A DNA stretch of 62,365 bases from Candidatus Saccharimonadota bacterium (lineage in GTDB: Bacteria; Patescibacteriota; Saccharimonadia; Saccharimonadales; Saccharimonadaceae): contig JAEETK010000002.1 of NCBI GenBank assembly GCA_016290315.1, forward strand, positions 1-62,365. The letters are read 5' to 3'. Positions 7,045 to 22,168 of the stretch are shown here, in pieces. A program made the position numbers and the translations under genes. The notes under the pieces are model-generated. The model made no database searches. It was not told the DNA's origin and saw only the letters and a program-made list of their open reading frames with translations. How positions within the stretch are numbered: position 1 is the stretch's first letter; each line of letters opens with the position of its first letter.

Positions 7045-8490
7045 ATGCCAAAACAAAAAAATATCAACTTTAAACGGAGGCTGATAGTCGCAGGTTTGTC
7101 AGCGTTGACACTCGCGGTGTTGGCGCCGGCAGCATCTACATATGCATGGGGGCCGGATCGTCCAACCTATACGATGAAGAAACCGGCAGACCATCCGACT
7201 TTCAACTCTATTACCGATAATAACGTTATCGGTGACGAGCGCGACTTCGTACGTGTGACCGAGGTGGGCGGTAACGGCAAGTACGTAAACGAGCTCAAGA
7301 TTACGCCAGGTAAGACCTACGAAGTCTATATCTTCTACCACAACAATGCGGCTTCAAACTTGAATGGTAGTGGTAAGGGTCTTGCTAATAAAGTAAAAGT
7401 TCAGAGCAAATTCCCATCGAAGGTTAACTCTTCTAGCAAGGGCACGATTAGTGCAACAATTTCTGCAGAGGATTCAACGCCAAAGTCGGTGTGGGACGAA
7501 GCTTACTTTACGACGGATTCAAAAGAGGACGTTGAGCTGAGATATCTTCCAGCAACGGCAATCATAAAGAACCAAGGTAAGCTAAACGGTACGGTTTTGA
7601 GCACAGAATTGTTCACTACGGGTGACTACATTGGCTACAATAGCCTAAGTGGTGTATTGCCTGGTTGTGAGGAGTTCTCTGGCCATATTGTATACCGCCT
7701 ACGCGCGGAACAGGCTAGCTCTTCAGTAGCAAAAACAGCTTCTTTGGATGGAAAGAACTTCTTCCAAGATGTAACTGCAAAACCTGGTGACACGGTAACT
7801 TATAAGATCACCTTCAAGAACACGGGTTCGAAAGATTTAACTAACGTAACTTTCCGCGATAAACTTCCTACGGGCGTTACTTTGGTTCCTGGGAGTGTCA
7901 AATTATACGATGATGGAACCAAGAAGACTGTAACCTTGTCGGATGCGGTAGTCGCAAACGGCGTTAATACCGGTTTGTTTGGTATTAATGTTACTGGTAC
8001 TTTGACCTATCAAGTAAAGGTTAATGACGATATCGTTAAAAATGGTAGCTGTGGCACGAATAGCTTTAAGAATATTATTAATGCCACAACCGACCAGACT
8101 GGTACTAAGACTGCAACTTCAACTATTAAGGTTGAAAAGACTTGCGAAGAGCCAGATCCATGTAAGAATGAAGACGGTTCTATCAAGCCTGAGTGCTGCG
8201 ATAAAGAAGAATACAAAGATGCTCCTGAATGCGAAGAGCCAGATCCATGTAAGAATGAAGACGGTTCTATTAAACAAGAATGTTGTGACCAACCTGAATA
8301 TAAGGATTTGCCACAATGTAAAGAAGAACCAAAACAGGTTCCAGAATTACCAAATACTGGCCCTGGCGAAATAGCTTTGGCGGTAGTAGCTGCAGTCTGT
8401 GTAATTACTGGTGTTAGCTATTGGTATCGTAGCCAAAAAGAAGTTGCCGAGGTTCAAAAAGGAATCAAAGGCAACGGTGGCAAAAAATAA
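7045..8490 (+). CDS. LPNTG surface protein with DUF11-type domain and Cys-rich repeats
   Basis: 481 aa. It has an N-terminal signal peptide with a basic start, a hydrophobic core and a likely cut after 'STYA' (residue 34). A beta-rich domain follows, then a DUF11-like module ('AKPGDTVTYKITFKNTGSKDLTNVTFRDKLP') near residues 250-290. Two copies of a Cys-rich segment (DPCKNEDGSIK, ECCD) are encoded by an exact 41-base repeat. A sorting signal LPNTG lies at residues 435-439 with a membrane segment after it. The tail after the membrane segment is about 20 residues long and basic. Sortase should attach it to the wall; the sortase at 46644 is a candidate partner. Confidence 0.9.
   Translation: MPKQKNINFKRRLIVAGLSALTLAVLAPAASTYAWGPDRPTYTMKKPADHPTFNSITDNNVIGDERDFVRVTEVGGNGKYVNELKITPGKTYEVYIFYHNNAASNLNGSGKGLANKVKVQSKFPSKVNSSSKGTISATISAEDSTPKSVWDEAYFTTDSKEDVELRYLPATAIIKNQGKLNGTVLSTELFTTGDYIGYNSLSGVLPGCEEFSGHIVYRLRAEQASSSVAKTASLDGKNFFQDVTAKPGDTVTYKITFKNTGSKDLTNVTFRDKLPTGVTLVPGSVKLYDDGTKKTVTLSDAVVANGVNTGLFGINVTGTLTYQVKVNDDIVKNGSCGTNSFKNIINATTDQTGTKTATSTIKVEKTCEEPDPCKNEDGSIKPECCDKEEYKDAPECEEPDPCKNEDGSIKQECCDQPEYKDLPQCKEEPKQVPELPNTGPGEIALAVVAAVCVITGVSYWYRSQKEVAEVQKGIKGNGGKK
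8143..8270 (+). repeat. 41-bp exact direct repeat inside the LPNTG gene
   Basis: Bases 8143-8183 and 8230-8270 are identical and 87 bases apart, encoding two copies of a Cys-containing segment (CEEPDPCKNEDGS). This is a recent internal duplication. Confidence 0.9.
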
Positions 8491-9472: not shown

Positions 9473-9480
9473 AAAAGAAA

Positions 9481-9509
9481 AATTCACCCCACAATTGGGT
9501 GAATTTTTT
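9481..9509 (+). terminator. rplU terminator
   Basis: Stem AATTCACCC / GGGTGAATT, loop CACAATT, T run. Confidence 0.9.
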
Positions 9510-9596: not shown

Positions 9597-10169
9597 ATGA
9601 GCAAAAAGAAAAAGACGATGCTTGTTGCAGCGATTGTATTAGGTATTGCCGTATTAGGTTTGGCCGCAGGCGTATATGCGAAGTATGTTGCTTCGTTGAC
9701 GGCTGGAAATGGCGGTGTAGCAATTGCCAAATGGGCTTTTAGTGATGACAATTCGAATGCTACGGTAGCTTGTCCGTTGAACTACAATTCTAACACGCTG
9801 GTCGATAATAGGATTGCCCCTGGTACGAGCGGCACATGTACATTAGAGTTGTCTAACGAGAATAGTGAAGTAGGTGTCAAATATACACTCAAGGCTACGG
9901 GTGTTTCGGGCGTCCCTAGCAATTTGGTTCTGACGTATACCAATGATCAAAATCAAGTGGTTAATTTGACACAGGGTGCCACCGTAACTGGCACGATGGC
10001 GCCTGGTGAGACAGGAAAAACTTTTGTAGTTAACTGGGAGTGGCCATACTACACTAGCGATGCGGACGACATTGAAGATACGAACAATGGTATTGCTGGT
10101 GGCGAGAATGGCACCAAAATGGTATTAAATTTCTCGGTTTCTGGCGAGCAAGTTCAGCCATCTGTCTAA
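9597..10169 (+). CDS. SipW-dependent/TasA-camelysin-like secreted protein
   Basis: 190 aa from the ATG behind GGAGG; upstream in-frame codons run back into rplU and its terminator and are rejected. The signal peptide is KKKK plus a hydrophobic core, then 'AGVYAKYVASLTAGNGGVAIAKW'. This is typical of substrates of the SipW-type signal peptidase, which have the pattern 'aYaxfxd...' followed by '(V)AkW'. The mature domain has 'RIAPGTSGTCTLELSNENSEVGVKYTL' and a 'NWEWPYY' motif followed by an acidic loop, as in TasA/camelysin proteins that form biofilm fibres. It is the first gene of a four-gene operon. No SipW peptidase gene is in the window. Confidence 0.78.
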   Translation: MSKKKKTMLVAAIVLGIAVLGLAAGVYAKYVASLTAGNGGVAIAKWAFSDDNSNATVACPLNYNSNTLVDNRIAPGTSGTCTLELSNENSEVGVKYTLKATGVSGVPSNLVLTYTNDQNQVVNLTQGATVTGTMAPGETGKTFVVNWEWPYYTSDADDIEDTNNGIAGGENGTKMVLNFSVSGEQVQPSV

Positions 10170-10192
10170 TAGCGTTATATAGAACAAATAAA

Positions 10193-10257
10193 TGTGGAGA
10201 CTGTTTCAGTCCCCACACGGGTGATGAATAAATAATTTATTATCCATGTGAGGGCTG
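10193..10257 (+). other. Two mutually exclusive hairpins within the TasA-like operon
   Basis: Hairpin A: TGTGGAGACTG (10193-10203) pairs with CAGTCCCCACA (10207-10217). Hairpin B: the same CAGTCCC-CACA can instead pair with TGTG-A-GGGCTG (10247-10257) around an AT-rich inner stem (AATAAAT / ATTTATT). Both cannot form at once. There is no T run. It lies in the 107-base gap between the first and second genes, just before the GGAGGA of the second, so it could tune relative expression or RNA stability. Confidence 0.55.
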
Positions 10258-10276
10258 AAGAATAATAGAAGGAGGA

Positions 10277-11050
10277 ATGCGCGTGAAAGAAAGTAAAGAA
10301 AAGCGAAATATTCTACCAGTAGCGATAATTATATTATTGTTGTTGATGGTGTTTGTTTTGCTTTGGCTTCTTTTGAGACCGCAACCAGAACCGACTAAGA
10401 TTCCGACTGGTAACATTGATGTGTTCGATATTCGAATCGGATGTCTTTGTAAGGGTAAGAATAAAGATGACAAGACCGATGATGGCGGCGACGATGAGTG
10501 TGGCAATGATGCGGATGGCTTTTATCCAAACGTATCGCCTGGCGCGAATGGCCAAAAGAAAGACACGGAAAAGAAAATTAATGGCGATACTAATACGGAC
10601 GTAGATGACGCTGGGATTGTTTATGTGGACGACGACAACGGTTGGTATGTATATCAGAAGAATTTGGAGATATTTAACAATGCTGCTTTTGAGTATACAA
10701 ATAAGATTGCGCCGGGGGTATCAAATTCGTACGATTTTAAGGTTCACAATGAGACTAGCAATACAATTCGTTATAATATCGAGTTTGCTGAAGAATCTGA
10801 GTATGCGATTAACATGAAATATCGCCTAAAGAGAGCTGGGGCCTATGTGGTCGGCAGCGAGACGGAATGGGTAAACGCAAGCCAGCTTTTGACGGCGATG
10901 AAGCAGTTGGTTAATGATGGCGTAGACGCATATACCTTGGATTGGATGTGGCCGTATGAGGACGGGAAAGATGATCAAGATACGGAAGCTGGAAAGAACA
11001 TGGAGTCGGAATATTATTTAGGCATAAAGGTGAACTTCGAGGAAGTGTAG
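10277..11050 (+). CDS. TasA-like membrane-anchored protein, second gene of operon
   Basis: 257 aa. A short basic start, then a strong membrane helix at about residues 13-32 with no clear signal-peptidase site, so it may stay anchored. An acidic Asp-rich linker follows ('KDDKTDDGGDDE'), then a domain with 'EYTNKIAPGVSNSYDFKVHNETSNTIRYNIEF' and 'LDWMWPYEDGKDDQDTEAG'. These motifs are shared with the upstream gene (IAPG, WxWPY followed by an acidic loop), so the two are paralogous fibre-like domains. It may be the anchor or base subunit. Good GGAGGA ribosome site. Confidence 0.7.
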   Translation: MRVKESKEKRNILPVAIIILLLLMVFVLLWLLLRPQPEPTKIPTGNIDVFDIRIGCLCKGKNKDDKTDDGGDDECGNDADGFYPNVSPGANGQKKDTEKKINGDTNTDVDDAGIVYVDDDNGWYVYQKNLEIFNNAAFEYTNKIAPGVSNSYDFKVHNETSNTIRYNIEFAEESEYAINMKYRLKRAGAYVVGSETEWVNASQLLTAMKQLVNDGVDAYTLDWMWPYEDGKDDQDTEAGKNMESEYYLGIKVNFEEV

Positions 11051-11051
11051 A

Positions 11052-11543
11052 ATGACACAAAAGAAACACATGCGGATATGGCAAATCGTCTTGCTGGGCG
11101 CGATGGCGGCTTGTGCTTCGTTTGTTACGAGTGTTTGTGTTGCGAAGATGGTTGGTAGCCAAGTAGAGTTAGAGGCTGAAGCGAGACAGATAGCAAAATG
11201 GTCCGTGGCAATAACTGGTTGTTCTGACAATGGAGTCGATTTAGTGGCGGGCGGCGACATAAAGAACTGTTCTTTGAATGTGGCAAATAACTCAGAGGTG
11301 GCAAGTAGCTATGTGATTGAGGTGTCGAATATACCGAATGGTGTGAAGGTTGGTTTGGGCGCTAGTGGCGCTTTATTAACGCCACAGAATGGCACAGTTA
11401 GATTTACTGATACCGGCGGAACACTAGCTATGAATGATGATAGGGGCCATGTTTTGCGTTTTGGCGCAGATTTGGCAACCAACGTAATTAATGAGAATGA
11501 GATAACTGTAGGCGTATTGTTTGCGCAGGAGGAGCCGCGATGA
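11052..11543 (+). CDS. Small TasA-like secreted protein, third gene of operon
   Basis: 163 aa. The N-terminal hydrophobic helix (about residues 11-30) is followed by 'VELEAEARQIAKWSVAITGC', the SipW-substrate-like 'AKW' start of a beta domain. The rest is a beta-sandwich-like stretch ('DIKNCSLNVANNSEVASSYVIEVSNIPNGV'). It lacks the WPY motif of the other two. The ATG is 1 base after the upstream stop and its GAGGAAG lies in the upstream gene; its own TGA overlaps the next start. Probably a minor subunit of the same structure. Confidence 0.68.
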   Translation: MTQKKHMRIWQIVLLGAMAACASFVTSVCVAKMVGSQVELEAEARQIAKWSVAITGCSDNGVDLVAGGDIKNCSLNVANNSEVASSYVIEVSNIPNGVKVGLGASGALLTPQNGTVRFTDTGGTLAMNDDRGHVLRFGADLATNVINENEITVGVLFAQEEPR

Positions 11544-13513
11544 TGCGAAAGTGCATGAGAGTGCTTGCGATTATTGCAGTATCGGGTTTGCTGTTGAGCG
11601 TCTATGCGATTAATACGCGGGCAAAGTATGCATCTAGAGCCGAAAGCACGGTGCAACTTAGCGTCGTGAAGCCGCATTATACGGTTGCCTTTAATGCTAA
11701 TGGTGGTACTGGTACGATGAATGGTCAGGATTTCACTTACGACACGGCGCAAGCCTTGAATGCGAATAGTTTTACTCGAAGCGATTATCATTTTGTGGTC
11801 TGGAATACGGAGGCGGACGGCAGCGGCGACTCTTACGATGATGAGGAAGAGGTATTGAATTTATCGGAAACTGGTACGGGTACGATAACTCTATATGCGC
11901 AGTGGGAAGAAAATGCGATGCATACGGTATTTGAGCTTAATGGCGAATGTGTTTTTCATGGTTATGATATGCAACAGGGGACAGGGGAAGGCTATATTAC
12001 AGGAAATGGTTGCGAAGTTGGTGGCGTAAATTATGCAGACGGCACACATAAGTTTATAGATACCGGTGTACGGTTGTATGACCAGGATAATTACGAAAAA
12101 GACTACGAGATTGGTTTTACGATTGTTTCTTACGACCCAACTAAACAATACCTTGATCAGGCTATTGGCGACACGGCCAGTCAGGCGTCTTTTATGAATA
12201 CGAAGTTTGAAGATGCGGGAAGAAAATTCCCAGGTTTAGTAGTTCGTAAGAATGGCGACAAAATCGAAGTGACGCAGACCATAAAAGGCAATAAGCCAAC
12301 TCCTGGCCAAAATCCTGCTAGAACGACAACTAAAGTAACGGTCGCGAGAGTGGACGGAGTCGTGTATTATTCCTTTAACGATAATCCTTTTGTGATGTTG
12401 CAGGATATTAATGGAACGGCAGATTATTTTAATACTACAGTATGGTTTGGTGCAGCGGCTAAGTCTGACGGCGCGACTCCGATACGTTTCATAGATGCGA
12501 CTTTATCAAATATGTACGTTAAGATTGGCGAGACTGGCGTAAATAAGCATGTCGTCTCATTTGATGCGGGTGGAGTAACTAGTAATCCTGCGAACGTTAC
12601 GATTATCGGTACGAGAAAAATTGGCAATGCGTTACCGGTATTAGAGAATCAAAATGGGCATTTCTTCAAAGGTTGGTATACGGAAGAGAACGGCGGTGGC
12701 ACTTTAGTCACATCCGACATGGTAATTGATAATGATATGACTCTTTATGCCCTTTGGCGCGATAACGACAATGTTTGTAGCGTGGGGGCGACTATTAGCA
12801 ATTCACTTCAGGGATGTATTAATGCGGCGGGCGCATCTGATACGATAACGTTACTAGATAATGTGAGGGAGCATATTATTATCAATAGTGGAAAAGTTAT
12901 TACGATTGATCTTGGCGGTTATACGTTAGGGGATAATAATGTCGGCGCGGCGGTAGTTAAGAACAATGGTGATTTGAGGTTGATTAATGGTACGATTACT
13001 TCTTCGGTAGACTTTAGCGTTATCGATAACAATCCGGGCGCTAAGTTGTCGGTTGGGCAGGACTTAAGAATAATTGCAACTGGCACAAAACAGGCGATTT
13101 ATAACGATACTGCCGAGCTTCATATAACTGATAATGCGTATTTGAGTTCAGTTTCAACTATACGTCCTGCACTAGAGAATCATAGTAACGGTGGCAAAAT
13201 ATATGTTGAGGGTGGTACGATTATCTCTGTCAACCAGCAGGGAATAAACAATAAGGCTGGAACGCTAGCGATTGGCGTGGGGGATGGAACAATTAATGCC
13301 AATTCGCCAGTTATTCAAGGCGCGACTTATGGAATCACTACCGGCAATAATAATATCTCTATGTATGACGGCATTCTGAGGGGCGAAACAGGGGCAATTG
13401 ATAATCCTGGAAGAATTACCGCTACCGAGAGTGGAGCTACGGCGGTTGGTATAAACCCAGTAGTGACAGAGATTATTGATGGTACTACGTACAAAGTGCT
13501 CTATTACGAATAA
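11540..13513 (+). CDS. InlB-repeat and beta-helix secreted protein, fourth gene of operon
   Basis: 657 aa. The signal-like start 'VLAIIAVSGLLLSVYAINTRAKYASRAE' again resembles SipW-dependent substrates (AKYAS). It contains two InlB/Listeria-Bacteroides-type repeats (about residues 46-112 and 335-392: 'VAFNANGGTGTM', 'VSFDAGGV...GHFFKGWYTEENGGGTLV'). Between them is a lectin/LamG-like region. After about residue 400 there is a right-handed beta-helix-like series ('ITIDLGGYTLGDNN', 'GDLRLINGTITSS', 'GGKIYVEGGTI'). There is no sorting signal or C-terminal helix. It could be a tip adhesin of a TasA-like fibre. It overlaps the upstream gene by 4 bases with GGAGG upstream. Confidence 0.78.
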   Translation: MMRKCMRVLAIIAVSGLLLSVYAINTRAKYASRAESTVQLSVVKPHYTVAFNANGGTGTMNGQDFTYDTAQALNANSFTRSDYHFVVWNTEADGSGDSYDDEEEVLNLSETGTGTITLYAQWEENAMHTVFELNGECVFHGYDMQQGTGEGYITGNGCEVGGVNYADGTHKFIDTGVRLYDQDNYEKDYEIGFTIVSYDPTKQYLDQAIGDTASQASFMNTKFEDAGRKFPGLVVRKNGDKIEVTQTIKGNKPTPGQNPARTTTKVTVARVDGVVYYSFNDNPFVMLQDINGTADYFNTTVWFGAAAKSDGATPIRFIDATLSNMYVKIGETGVNKHVVSFDAGGVTSNPANVTIIGTRKIGNALPVLENQNGHFFKGWYTEENGGGTLVTSDMVIDNDMTLYALWRDNDNVCSVGATISNSLQGCINAAGASDTITLLDNVREHIIINSGKVITIDLGGYTLGDNNVGAAVVKNNGDLRLINGTITSSVDFSVIDNNPGAKLSVGQDLRIIATGTKQAIYNDTAELHITDNAYLSSVSTIRPALENHSNGGKIYVEGGTIISVNQQGINNKAGTLAIGVGDGTINANSPVIQGATYGITTGNNNISMYDGILRGETGAIDNPGRITATESGATAVGINPVVTEIIDGTTYKVLYYE

Positions 13514-17242: not shown

Positions 17243-20200
17243 ATGTTATTCAGGAGGGGTCCTGTAGCATCTCGCGCCAAGGAGCGCAAAACAAAAAGGG
17301 AGAAAAACAACAAACTAGTCCGTATTTTGGTGGCTACGTTCTTGGGAGTTTTTGTCTCTGTTTTTGCATTCAATTCTCTTGCTGAAATTATCACAGACAA
17401 CGATGTCCGCTTGGATGTGGATTCCGAACTCACATATTATCTCAACGTCAAAGAAGATGGTGTTGATGCTTCCGGCATAGAGTCTAGCGACAGCCAAATG
17501 GCAGATATTCGTGGCGGTAGAATAACCGTTACGGATAAACTTCCCGAAGGTCTTATCTTCCAGGGCTTTGTTACTACCTCTGACGGTACCTTTGGTGCCG
17601 TATCCCGTGCAGACAATTCTATCCAATGTTCCGGTAAGGTCGTCGACGACACTAATGAAGCGACGCTAGATGCTGGTACCTGGAACAACGCACATACCGA
17701 ATACTACTATCATGGTCTCCATTATGACGATACAACTCGTACAGTTTCCTTTACGGCCGAGAAGATTAAAGCTGGTTGCCAACTTACGATTGGTATTATT
17801 ACGAAAACTCCAGCAACCGTAGATGATCCAGATACCACACCGGTAGAAACACGTCGAGATTTCTACAACACCGCCTTTGCATCCGAAAAAGACATTACAG
17901 CTATCTCCAATACTGTCCATGCCTGGATAGGTAGTTCTAGTGCCAGAGTATACAAGGTTATGTATAGGTATACAGGAGACATTCCAACTGGTGCGCCGAC
18001 TGTACCAAGCGAGCAATCTTACCCAGCCAACAATGAAGTGGCCGTAAGTATGAATCCAACCCTCGAAGGTTATACTTTCTCTGGCTGGACTACAACTGAC
18101 GCTACGGTAACGGACGGCTCTTTCACGATGCCGGACCAAGACGTAGAGCTAGTCGGCATCTGGACAAAGAATGCGACGGCAACCAAGTACAACGTAACCT
18201 ACGTCATTAATGGCGACAAACCAGCAGATTTCATGCCACCAGCCCAGAAAGAATACGAAGCTGGAGTTAGTGTACCCTTGGATTCTACGGAAGCTAATGC
18301 TGTCATTGATGGTTACCGTTTTAGTGGTTGGAGTACCCAAGACGTAACCCTAAGTGATACCGGCTTCACGATGCCCGCCCAGAATGTTACCATTGTGGGT
18401 AGCTTTGAACGTATTAGCTACAGAGTCTGCTATGAGTTTGAGGGTGCCGTCATTCCGCCTAATGCTAGTTCTATCCTCCCACCATGTGAAACACATTACC
18501 CAGGTGAGACTGTCACAAGAGCTGCTGATCCACAGGCTGATGGCTACGACTTTCTTGGCTGGTACAAGAATGCCACTTTCACTATGCCAGAAGAAAATGT
18601 CACTATCTATGGCGAGTGGATGCGCACAATGGATAAGTTTGCTCCGGCCATCACTAAGACCATCACTAACCCTCAAGACGAATATATGTATGGCGAAACT
18701 GTAAAGTTTAAGATTATTGTTACTAACCCAGAATCCTTTGCTATTACTGATGTTTACCTCCAAGAAGAACTAGATGGCGCAGTCTTTACGGCTCCAAACG
18801 ACAGCAGCTACACGGTCAAGACTAGCACTATAGCCTTTATCCCTACCATTGCCGCAAACTCCAGCATAGACGTCTATGCCGAATACAAAGTAACCGAAAA
18901 CGTTGCCCAAACTCTCACCAACATCGTTGAACTTACTGGCGCTTTGGCAGAAGACCACATTCTAGACACTGACCAAGAATACAAAGCTACTGTAGATTTC
19001 GACACTATTCCTGAGTCTGTACCGATTACAGGCGTTATCTTCAATGCTTTGCCATATGTGGGGATGGTAATATTAGGGATTGTCATTATTATCATTGGAA
19101 CGGTACTGTCTCGCAAGATAACAAACTCAATAGCAAAGTTAACACACTCTCGTAGCTTTGAGATTAATAAAAGGATACTTAAATATTCCATCCCATGTTT
19201 TGCCATGATTGGCATAATACTAGGTGGCATTATTGCTAAGAGTGTTTCGGCAGTAAACTATACAGAAGTAATTAAGTCCGTAGAACTCACTTCGCAACAC
19301 ACAAGCTACACTAATAATGCGCCTGGTTCTTGGAATGTAGAGAAGAGTGCAGAATGGATTGAGGCAGGCAAAGCCAGAATTACCTTTAACGTAGACACAG
19401 TAGCTAATAATAAAGACAACACATATCTAGATCTCGTGATGGTAATAGACAATTCTGGTTCAATGAGTGGCGAAAAGATTACACAAGTTAAACATGACGC
19501 TATAGAACTAATTGAAAGTGTTCTCTCCGACAGCAATAACCGTATAGGACTCGTAAGCTTTGGCTCTAGCGCTTCAAGGCTAAGTAACTTAACGACCGAT
19601 AAAACTGCCCTTATAGATTTGGTTAATGGCTTAAGGCCTGCGGGTAGTACTAATTACTACGATGGTTTCAAAAAAGCTGAAGAAGCTCTCGAAGGTTACC
19701 AGAAACAAAACAACCGCGAACTTATTATGTTGTTCCTAACTGACGGCTATCCAAATGAGCAAACACCAAATGAAATTCCTGAATACCAAGCCCTCAAGGC
19801 AAAATACCCATATATGACCATTAATGGTATTCAATACGAAATGGGCGATGAAGTACTTGATCCAATTAAAGATGTTTCAGATAACCAATTCATTGCCAAT
19901 ATGGATTCATTGAATAACGTGCTCTTTGAAGCCTCTATTATTCCGTATGTTTACAATAACTTCACATTAGTGGATTACATTAATGACGAATATTGGGATG
20001 TAGATAGCATAGATAATATTGAAGCAACAATAGGCGAAACTGCTCTAACCCATAATGGTAATACGCCAGTCGTAACTTGGACAATGAATGAAGTACTCAT
20101 ATCTGGTCAATCCGCAAAACTTACCATAGACATTACACTTAAGAATGCTGGCGCTATAGCAGACGGCACTTTCTTGCCGACCAATGATCATGAAGCTATC

Positions 20201-22168
20201 CAAAGTAGTCTACCTGAAACACCAGACGAAAACATCACAAGTGAACTAACGCCAGTATTAAGGTCTAGTTACAAAGTGACTTACGAGCCAAATCTACCAA
20301 GTGCTTGCTCTACATATGAAGGGACTCTACCGGCAGAACAAAATTATCTGCCACTCTCTGTAGTGGGGAAGTCTAGTGATACCATTTCTTGTGATGGCTA
20401 TAACTTTAATGGTTGGGAGATAGCTGAAGGCGACCCGAAGATTCTAAATGATGATTACTTCAAGATCATGGACGATGACGTAATTCTTCGTGCCACTTGG
20501 ACTAAGCCTTCTATCTCTAAGAGCATGGATGGGGAAGTGGAGGAAGAGGCAGTGGCAACGCTTGATACGGGGCGAAGCATTAATGCCGCCTTGAAGAAAT
20601 TATCTGGCCAAAGTGGCGCAACACATACCACAACGAATACTACTATTACAGCAGTTAAGTCTGCTACCTCCATGCCTGTCTCGCAACAAGCTAACGTCTC
20701 AATAATCTCTACATCTAGCTCTCCAGTTCCGGTTTACGCCTGGTTTGATGATACTGATGGATCAATTTATATCTATTCTGAGGCTGATGTTATTCAGGGC
20801 AATAGTGACATGAGCTATATATTCTATAACGCCTCTAGTCTCGCCAACATCGATGCCTTAGCTAATTGGGATACCTCAAGCGTAACTAACATGAGCTTTA
20901 TGTTCCAAAACGCCTCCAGCCTCACCAGCATCGATGCCTTAGCTGATTGGGATACCTCAAGCGTAACTAACATGAGCTATATGTTCTTTAGCGCCTCCAG
21001 CCTTACCGATATCGATGCCTTAGCTAATTGGAATACCTCAAAGGTAACGAATATGGCCTCTATATTTAACAGCACCTCCAGTCTTACCAACATCGATGCC
21101 TTAGAGAAATGGAACACCTCAAGCGTAACGGATATGAGTCTTATGTTTAACCGCGCCTCTAGTCTCGCCAACATCGATGCCTTAGCTAATTGGGATACTT
21201 CAAGCGTAACGAGCATGAGCTCTATGTTCCAAAACGCCTCCAGCCTCACCAACATCGATGCCTTAGCTGATTGGGGTACCTCAAGCGTGACGAGTATGTT
21301 TGGTATGCTTTGTGGCGCCTCTAAACTTACCGATATATCTGGCACAGCTAACTGGGACACCTCTAACGTAACGAATATGAGCCAAATATTTAACGGCGCC
21401 TCCAGTCTCACCGGTATCGACGCCTTAGCTAATTGGGATACCTCAAAGGTAACGAATATGAGTTTTATGTTCTATGGCACCTCCAGCCTCACCAGCATTG
21501 ATGCTTTAGCTAACTGGGATACCTCAAAGGTAACGGATATGGGCGGTATGTTCTATAACGCCTCCAGTCTCACCGGTATCGACGCCTTAGCTAATTGGGA
21601 TACCTCAAAGGTAACGAATATGGACTCTATATTTAACCGCGCCTCTAGTCTCGCCAACATCGATGCCTTAGCTAATTGGGATACTTCAAGCGTAACGAAC
21701 ATGAGCTATATGTTCCAAAACGCCTCCAGCCTCACCAATATTGATGCTCTAGCTAACTGGAACGCCTCAAAGGTAACGAACATGAGCTATATGTTCCAAA
21801 ACGCCTCCAGCCTCACCAATATTGATGCCTTAGCGAGCTGGGATACCTCAAGCGTGACGAATATGGGCTCTGTGTTTCGTGACGTCTCCAGCCTCACCAA
21901 TATCGACGCCTTAGCTAATTGGGATACTTCAAGCGTAACGAACATGAGCTCTATGTTCCGTGGCGTCCCTAGTCTCACTAACATTGATGCTTTAGGGGAA
22001 TGGAACACCTCAAACGTAACGGATATGCGCTATATGTTCCGAGACGATGGACAAATTACTTCGCTTCGGCCAATCTTTAATTGGACGGTTCGGAGCACTG
22101 CTAAGATGTCGGGCATGTTTTCTGGCATTCCGTCATCCGTAGTGCGACCAGATTGGTACAAAGGCTAA
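17243..22168 (+). CDS. Giant fused surface protein: SHIRT/DUF11 half, membrane hairpin, VWA and DUF285 repeats
   Basis: 1641 aa. Half 1: N-terminal signal helix (about 28-47), a beta region, three SHIRT-like/InlB-like repeats (about 233-445, 'YTFSGW', 'YRFSGW', 'YDFLGW') and a DUF11-like domain. It ends in VPITG at 593-597 plus a hydrophobic helix and basic residues, which is a complete sorting-signal tail. Half 2: a second signal-like helix (about 645-670, ending 'AKSVSA') and a von Willebrand A domain with MIDAS D736-x-S738-x-S740. Another SHIRT-like repeat and fifteen DUF285 units follow. There is no C-terminal anchor. The basic loop between the two helices would be cytosolic, leaving both halves outside. 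GGAG lies 8 bases before the ATG. Confidence 0.88.
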   Translation: MLFRRGPVASRAKERKTKREKNNKLVRILVATFLGVFVSVFAFNSLAEIITDNDVRLDVDSELTYYLNVKEDGVDASGIESSDSQMADIRGGRITVTDKLPEGLIFQGFVTTSDGTFGAVSRADNSIQCSGKVVDDTNEATLDAGTWNNAHTEYYYHGLHYDDTTRTVSFTAEKIKAGCQLTIGIITKTPATVDDPDTTPVETRRDFYNTAFASEKDITAISNTVHAWIGSSSARVYKVMYRYTGDIPTGAPTVPSEQSYPANNEVAVSMNPTLEGYTFSGWTTTDATVTDGSFTMPDQDVELVGIWTKNATATKYNVTYVINGDKPADFMPPAQKEYEAGVSVPLDSTEANAVIDGYRFSGWSTQDVTLSDTGFTMPAQNVTIVGSFERISYRVCYEFEGAVIPPNASSILPPCETHYPGETVTRAADPQADGYDFLGWYKNATFTMPEENVTIYGEWMRTMDKFAPAITKTITNPQDEYMYGETVKFKIIVTNPESFAITDVYLQEELDGAVFTAPNDSSYTVKTSTIAFIPTIAANSSIDVYAEYKVTENVAQTLTNIVELTGALAEDHILDTDQEYKATVDFDTIPESVPITGVIFNALPYVGMVILGIVIIIIGTVLSRKITNSIAKLTHSRSFEINKRILKYSIPCFAMIGIILGGIIAKSVSAVNYTEVIKSVELTSQHTSYTNNAPGSWNVEKSAEWIEAGKARITFNVDTVANNKDNTYLDLVMVIDNSGSMSGEKITQVKHDAIELIESVLSDSNNRIGLVSFGSSASRLSNLTTDKTALIDLVNGLRPAGSTNYYDGFKKAEEALEGYQKQNNRELIMLFLTDGYPNEQTPNEIPEYQALKAKYPYMTINGIQYEMGDEVLDPIKDVSDNQFIANMDSLNNVLFEASIIPYVYNNFTLVDYINDEYWDVDSIDNIEATIGETALTHNGNTPVVTWTMNEVLISGQSAKLTIDITLKNAGAIADGTFLPTNDHEAIQSSLPETPDENITSELTPVLRSSYKVTYEPNLPSACSTYEGTLPAEQNYLPLSVVGKSSDTISCDGYNFNGWEIAEGDPKILNDDYFKIMDDDVILRATWTKPSISKSMDGEVEEEAVATLDTGRSINAALKKLSGQSGATHTTTNTTITAVKSATSMPVSQQANVSIISTSSSPVPVYAWFDDTDGSIYIYSEADVIQGNSDMSYIFYNASSLANIDALANWDTSSVTNMSFMFQNASSLTSIDALADWDTSSVTNMSYMFFSASSLTDIDALANWNTSKVTNMASIFNSTSSLTNIDALEKWNTSSVTDMSLMFNRASSLANIDALANWDTSSVTSMSSMFQNASSLTNIDALADWGTSSVTSMFGMLCGASKLTDISGTANWDTSNVTNMSQIFNGASSLTGIDALANWDTSKVTNMSFMFYGTSSLTSIDALANWDTSKVTDMGGMFYNASSLTGIDALANWDTSKVTNMDSIFNRASSLANIDALANWDTSSVTNMSYMFQNASSLTNIDALANWNASKVTNMSYMFQNASSLTNIDALASWDTSSVTNMGSVFRDVSSLTNIDALANWDTSSVTNMSSMFRGVPSLTNIDALGEWNTSNVTDMRYMFRDDGQITSLRPIFNWTVRSTAKMSGMFSGIPSSVVRPDWYKG
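20810..22060 (+). repeat. Fifteen tandem 81-bp DUF285 (BspA-type) repeats
   Basis: Units of 27 codons with the core ASSLTNIDALANWDTSSVTN and MSYMF. Fifteen SSL-x-x-IDAL-type cores can be counted; copy 7 is the most divergent (SKLTDISGT). DUF285/BspA-type repeats are found in adhesins of Mycoplasma, Treponema and Lactobacillus. The DNA identity between units is high in places, so slippage or recombination can change the copy number. Confidence 0.92.

Follow-up and report, generated by a model that had tools for sequence, protein, structure and literature searches.

A conserved four-gene cassette of Saccharibacteria that may encode a SipW-processed, TasA-like surface fibre

In Bacillus subtilis, the tapA-sipW-tasA operon encodes a fibre subunit, a SipW peptidase and an accessory protein that has been proposed to start or anchor the fibre (PMC9674648, PMC10151520). 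An aromatic residue at position P2' of the cleavage site renders TasA a poor substrate for LepB (PMC10269814). Saccharibacteria are known to tether their hosts with type IV pili, and additional close-range adhesins have been proposed to hold the host after pilus tethering (PMC12206443). We found no literature on SipW in Saccharibacteria.

Here we describe a four-gene cassette (A to D) in a 62,365-nucleotide stretch of DNA, hereafter the window, from a Saccharibacteria-type genome (G000; 1.2 Mb, 98% complete, assembly contamination 8.4%). Several related Candidatus Saccharibacteria records are of sheep or goat rumen and omasum origin. The cassette resembles tapA-sipW-tasA in its small exported subunit with a predicted beta-sandwich, in a putative accessory protein for the start or anchoring of the fibre, in the aromatic P2' residue at the main subunit's cleavage site and, in distant relatives only, in a co-encoded SipW-type peptidase. 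It differs in that its proteins match neither PF12389 nor TIGR04088 and the window operon has no peptidase gene, and it adds a putative adhesin gene (D), a conserved RNA hairpin and a hypervariable main subunit. On balance, we think that the cassette probably specifies a surface fibre of Saccharibacteria that is processed by a SipW-type peptidase and built in a donor-strand-like manner; TasA-like but distinct, it would have its base anchored in the membrane and a tip resembling a lectin.

Gene layout and predicted proteins

The four collinear genes reported in the initial annotation are present (Table 1), with rplU and a terminator upstream of A and rseP downstream of D; the terminator-like hairpin appears to set the cassette apart from rplU. 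The close coupling described for genes 2 to 4 also stands: B and C are one base apart, and C and D overlap by 4 bases (ATGA). A gap of 107 bases, which holds the conserved RNA hairpin, separates A from B, and B likely starts at the GTG at 10283, 7 nt past an AGGAGG at 10270-10275. Co-inheritance of the genes as a unit across genomes agrees with the proposal of one operon for exported proteins. Elsewhere in the window, positions 7045-8490, just upstream of rplU and kept in relatives, encode an LPNTG motif and a C-terminal membrane segment (sortase-substrate type), while positions 17243-22168 encode a surface protein of 1641 aa that combines InlB-type repeats with numerous NWDTSxVTNM repeats; the latter are resembled by Fib_succ_major repeats in the D-like protein of a relative (G265; L112 3811-7968).

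Table 1. Coordinates of cassette features (window positions unless residues of D are given)
Feature	Position	Strand	Basis
Terminator-like hairpin (intrinsic) after rplU	9477..9509	+	13-pair stem plus T-run
Gene A, 190 aa, exported, predicted beta-sandwich, proposed main subunit of the shaft	9597..10169	+	ORF, alignments, AlphaFold model
Mature region of A, hypervariable	9681..10166	+	Identity comparison with nearest relatives
RNA arm 1 (TGTGGAGACTG), pairs with 10207-10217 as competing hairpin I	10193..10203	+	10/11 pairs
RNA hairpin II, arm 2 (partner 10239-10259)	10205..10225	+	RNAalifold, 16 loci
RNA hairpin II, arm 3, ending 10 nt ahead of B's AGGAGG	10239..10259	+	RNAalifold, 16 loci
Gene B, up to 257 aa, proposed base of structure	10277..11050	+	ORF, alignments, profile comparison
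Gene C, 163 aa, exported, A-related, proposed minor/adaptor subunit	11052..11543	+	ORF, alignments, profile matches
Gene D, 657 aa, exported, proposed tip adhesin	11540..13513	+	Pfam Flg_new, AlphaFold, fold matches
Variable block 2, covering the jelly roll and the second InlB repeat of D	11912..12769	+	Identity comparison
D, first InlB repeat	residues 46-124	+	Pfam Flg_new
D, laminin-G/CBM40-like jelly roll	residues 125-332	+	AlphaFold, fold matches
D, second InlB repeat	residues 333-410	+	Pfam Flg_new
D, right-handed beta-helix	residues 411-657	+	AlphaFold, fold matches

Protein A begins with a lysine-rich start and a hydrophobic core, and its signal runs to residue 28 (site VYA↓KY). The extension AKY...AKWAF follows the cleavage site, and A also carries IAPG; a W-x-WPY motif (W-x-W(P)Y across homologues) precedes an acidic loop, and cysteines C59 and C81 are invariant in the alignment of homologues. 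Such TasA-like features had been ascribed to all three small genes, but only A has the full set, and B and C each lack some. B has IAPG and WMWPY but neither a cleavable signal nor an AKY/AKW exit; its N-terminal membrane anchor is uncleaved and is followed by an acidic linker with two invariant cysteines and by an A-like Ig-type domain. C has the site VA↓KM and an AKM...AKW exit, with neither IAPG nor WxWPY. Profile comparison bears out the kinship claimed for the small subunits: hhalign scored A against B at 97% (E 5e-11) and A against C at 96% (E 2e-9), versus less than 9% for each of four unrelated window families used as controls, and the A profile directly matched B genes at E 1e-6 to 1e-10 and the C of G265 at 7e-7. 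Homology between A and D beyond the signal was set aside, as the similarity (80%) was restricted to the signal region.

The proposed membership of the TasA/camelysin family did not hold up against Pfam, NCBIfam or PDB sequences. A to D had no Pfam match to PF12389 up to E 5, nor did 13 A homologues up to E 0.1; the SipW-cognate signal model TIGR04088 matched neither A to D nor the A homologues, and a PDB sequence search with the A, B and C profiles gave no credible match. The AlphaFold model of A is a beta-sandwich (pLDDT 70.8) in which the donor segment has low confidence. Its best fold matches, to Csu and Fim/Pap-type pilins, reach only Z 6.4 (Ena2A and cannulae are also listed), and the TasA fibre 8aur scores Z 5.1 (rmsd 5.0, 139 aligned), below several unrelated pilins. 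These matches fall below the secure level and may reflect only the common beta-sandwich. Given the weak fold scores and the absence of a sequence match in these searches, it is plausible that A works like TasA, but membership of the TasA family is not established.

The fourth gene does encode InlB repeats and, by prediction, a beta-helix, as the initial annotation had it. D is exported (site RA↓KY), and Pfam Flg_new (E 6.5e-20) identifies its two InlB/Listeria-Bacteroides repeats; in its AlphaFold model (pLDDT 84.3), the beta-helix matches that of GH87 at Z 14. The model also predicts a laminin-G/CBM40-like jelly roll that was missing from the earlier description: modelled residues 126-361 have a concanavalin-type fold and match sialidase CBM40 domains at Z 12-13 and agrin and neurexin at Z 10-11. 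The predicted jelly roll is similar to domains that bind sugars or proteins; with the beta-helix and the fold matches, it makes D look like the adhesin that had been proposed.

Alternatively, anchored B could hold secreted Ig domains of the A type, together with the adhesin D, in a surface complex that does not polymerise, with no fibre at all. An operon without an assembly machine would suit such a complex, as would a fold of A that is not clearly TasA-like and B as the sole anchored part. We nevertheless consider this unlikely: A has a separate AKY...AKW extension of the kind typically seen in subunits that donate strands, one operon encodes three A-related proteins, and the RNA element that lies between A and the other genes points to unequal amounts, as would be expected for a polymer.

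SipW-type peptidases and the route of processing

The search for a SipW-type peptidase, called for by the initial annotation, succeeded in part. The genome encodes two (TIGR02228; contigs C69 and C13) and relatives have them within the operon, but the window operon itself contains none, and none was found in G032, a cassette-bearing genome rated 100% complete. The in-operon genes occur in three distant relatives, with the orders peptidase-A-B-peptidase-C-D-like (G265), A-B-peptidase-C-like-D-like (G249) and A-B-two small exported proteins-peptidase (G102), and all four encoded peptidases score above the TIGR02228 cut-off. With about 1.3 such genes per genome, and independence assumed, the chance that three of four distant loci have a peptidase within 10 kb is approximately 1e-5. 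An aromatic P2' residue (A↓KY) is present in 14/14 A and 14/14 D proteins; C has A↓KM, and Met is not aromatic. Co-occurrence of the cassette with SipW was dropped as evidence: TIGR02228 matches are found in 40 of the 45 genus genomes, and such peptidases are nearly as common in cassette-free genomes of the genus, so co-occurrence is uninformative.

Three observations would be compatible with the proteins being ordinary Sec/LepB substrates, unconnected with SipW-type peptidases: the cleavage sites are of the AxA type, the window operon lacks a peptidase, and G032, where no TIGR02228 member was found, does encode LepB and another P-type peptidase. This interpretation seems rather doubtful in light of the in-operon peptidase genes of the three distant relatives and the aromatic P2' residue conserved in A and D (PMC10269814). 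Processing by a SipW-type peptidase is the reading we prefer, and judged from the genomes, the SipW part of the earlier interpretation holds better than the TasA part.

The two peptidases of the source genome look, from their neighbours, as if they act on proteins other than A. The first belongs to a separate operon (C69 10371-13902; L006) that also encodes three small exported proteins, two of which pass the TIGR04088 signal model and one of which bears a weak resemblance to BsaA, as well as a fourth protein that has a membrane segment at its C terminus. This operon is kept in G039 and, in part, on a G022 contig; C69 is unlikely to be a contaminant contig, as G039 and G022 carry its SipW at 98% and 96% identity, respectively, with the same neighbours. 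Although it likewise combines SipW with small exported proteins in the same organism, it differs from the cassette in being a separate locus whose proteins are similar to the A profile only in their signal peptides. The second peptidase (C13 1079-3516; L007) is fused to an N-terminal part with multiple membrane spans, an arrangement that recurs in the genus (L041, L114); a small A/TasA-like exported protein precedes it, and a third conserved protein, weakly DUF5305-like, follows it.

Distribution, strain variation and the RNA hairpin

At E 0.01, a search matched A in 16 of 45 genomes of the genus, one match (G008) being weak and situated in another kind of SipW locus. The order A-B-C-D is kept in 15 of the 45 (the source genome and 14 further) and in G227, conservation that appears far beyond chance expectation, and most cassettes of the genus are placed between rplU and rseP. 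Broader profile searches added G227, G249 and G265 (one other genus) and G102 (another genus). Searches of order and phylum samples with the B and A profiles gave no full-length match outside the genus and two other genera of its family, and tblastn with the A of the window or of G265 gave no match in plasmids. Since matches are confined to the genus and two further genera, the cassette appears to be a discrete accessory unit with a patchy distribution in a single family. In G227 (L111), the complete genus-type cassette and the same hairpin lie at a different chromosomal place, which suggests horizontal transfer of the whole unit.

Variation between strains is concentrated in two parts of the cassette. 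Mature A is only 38-42% identical to its nearest relatives, versus 91-99% for most flanking genes, and the A signal peptide is 93-100% identical between near relatives; within D, identity is 67-75% for the jelly roll and second InlB repeat, versus 88-92% for the first repeat and beta-helix. At the nucleotide level, the nearest relatives (G039 and G003) are about 90-98% identical to the window across most of the locus, 48-66% across mature A and approximately 70% across the part of D that encodes its jelly roll and second InlB repeat; cpbp varies too in G003. Four-fold sites are saturated in A (0.69-0.76, versus 0.06-0.28 in most neighbours), suggesting replacement by divergent alleles beyond mere fast amino-acid change. 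In G022, the whole cassette has been exchanged, with rseP, cpbp and mutM 97-98% identical; its D has no match to the beta-helix of window D and carries repeats of a different kind. Assembly breaks within A on G022 contigs C60 and C61 (L040, L020) are expected where strains differ in A alleles, and in G039 the A frame is broken near a T run (L039 5490-5500), reflecting either assembly error or phase variation.

Such a pattern is what would be expected of an exchanged surface subunit, or of an exposed structure that is under diversifying selection. It could also indicate a polymorphic surface locus whose varied parts act as decoys against phages or host defences, not as an attachment device: the replaced alleles centre on mature A and on the jelly roll of D, and G022 has exchanged its entire cassette between intact flanks. 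We regard a decoy function as quite improbable, since D carries conserved domains of predicted binding type and B and C are conserved between near relatives; moreover, evasion and attachment are not exclusive.

Hairpin II is present in 16/16 A-B gaps, with 21 consensus pairs, 8 of them with compensatory changes (RNAalifold). In the alignment, 95.5% of cells are paired and 28 cells are changed on both sides, compared with 12 in shuffles (0/500 shuffles as high), and sliding the partner by one to three columns reduces pairing to 41-52%. The competing arm 1 arrangement was recovered in 12 of the 16 loci by script and in the other 4 by eye. Action from the opposite strand is disfavoured by the scores (73-90 bits on the + strand, 29-51 on the - strand) and by the many G-U pairs on the + strand. 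A search of 12 genomes on both strands, in which scoring covered part of the first-look candidates, placed the hairpin at the cassette site only in 8/8 cassette-bearing genomes and found none in 4 genus genomes without the cassette; a dispersed repeat was rejected because none of the 12 had a second site. The hairpin is missing from the peptidase-bearing relatives G265, G249 and G102, whose A-B gaps are short. A strongly covarying hairpin without an Rfam match is of interest on its own.

Double-stranded RNA of about 21 pairs falls within the substrate size range of RNase III, and processing that leaves A in excess is thus the favoured putative role of the hairpin. Two mutually exclusive hairpins that share arm 2, with arm 3 just ahead of B's ribosome site, could also form a transcription attenuator or ligand-sensing switch for B-C-D in place of a processing or stability element. 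That possibility strikes us as fairly unlikely: no U-run follows hairpin II on the + strand, both hairpins leave B's AGGAGG free, and Rfam has no match.

The proposed fibre among known filaments

For the favoured fibre model, we infer polymerisation, peptidase dependence in this genome, the roles of B, C and D, the function of the RNA and the target cell. A would be exported and cut after VYA, exposing the extended AKY...AKW N-terminus ahead of its beta-sandwich, and would polymerise by insertion of this extension into the next subunit. B, with an A-like domain and an uncleaved anchor but without the extension, would take up the first donated strand and keep the fibre attached to the cell, while C and D, which have A-like exits, would serve as adaptor and tip, the D jelly roll contacting another cell. 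The 21-pair hairpin and its competing arm would split the A mRNA from the B-C-D mRNA, through processing or stability, and so supply A in excess. Host attachment would be one of several possible uses.

A bolder and more tentative proposal, which we hold to be possible but less than probable, is that the cassette represents an undescribed class of epibiont surface fibre for recognition of a bacterial host, in which A subunits are unrelated in sequence to TasA, recombination between strains swaps the mature subunit and tip domain, and the dosage of subunits is set by a dedicated RNA hairpin with two states. In either form, the cassette offers a testable candidate for how parasitic epibionts touch other cells, probably through a sugar-binding fibre with strongly varying parts. 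Its four genes and their pattern of variation, together with a predicted binding domain and the link to a peptidase, also make host holding after pilus tethering testable.

Three further systems invite comparison. Like the sipW-tasA, calY and capP system of Bacillus cereus (PMC13082335), the cassette would rely on several SipW-processed subunits independently of sortase, but it has no CapP/DUF4047 protein and has the membrane-anchored, A-like B in its place. The strand-exchanged pilins of chaperone-usher pili (Csu, Fim) are closest to the predicted fold of A (the same top-scoring matches), but the operon has neither chaperone nor usher, and the likeness is perhaps just that of a common sandwich. 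Finally, the type IV pili of Saccharibacteria occur in the same phylum, but the cassette differs from them in its unrelated proteins and assembly (PMC12206443).
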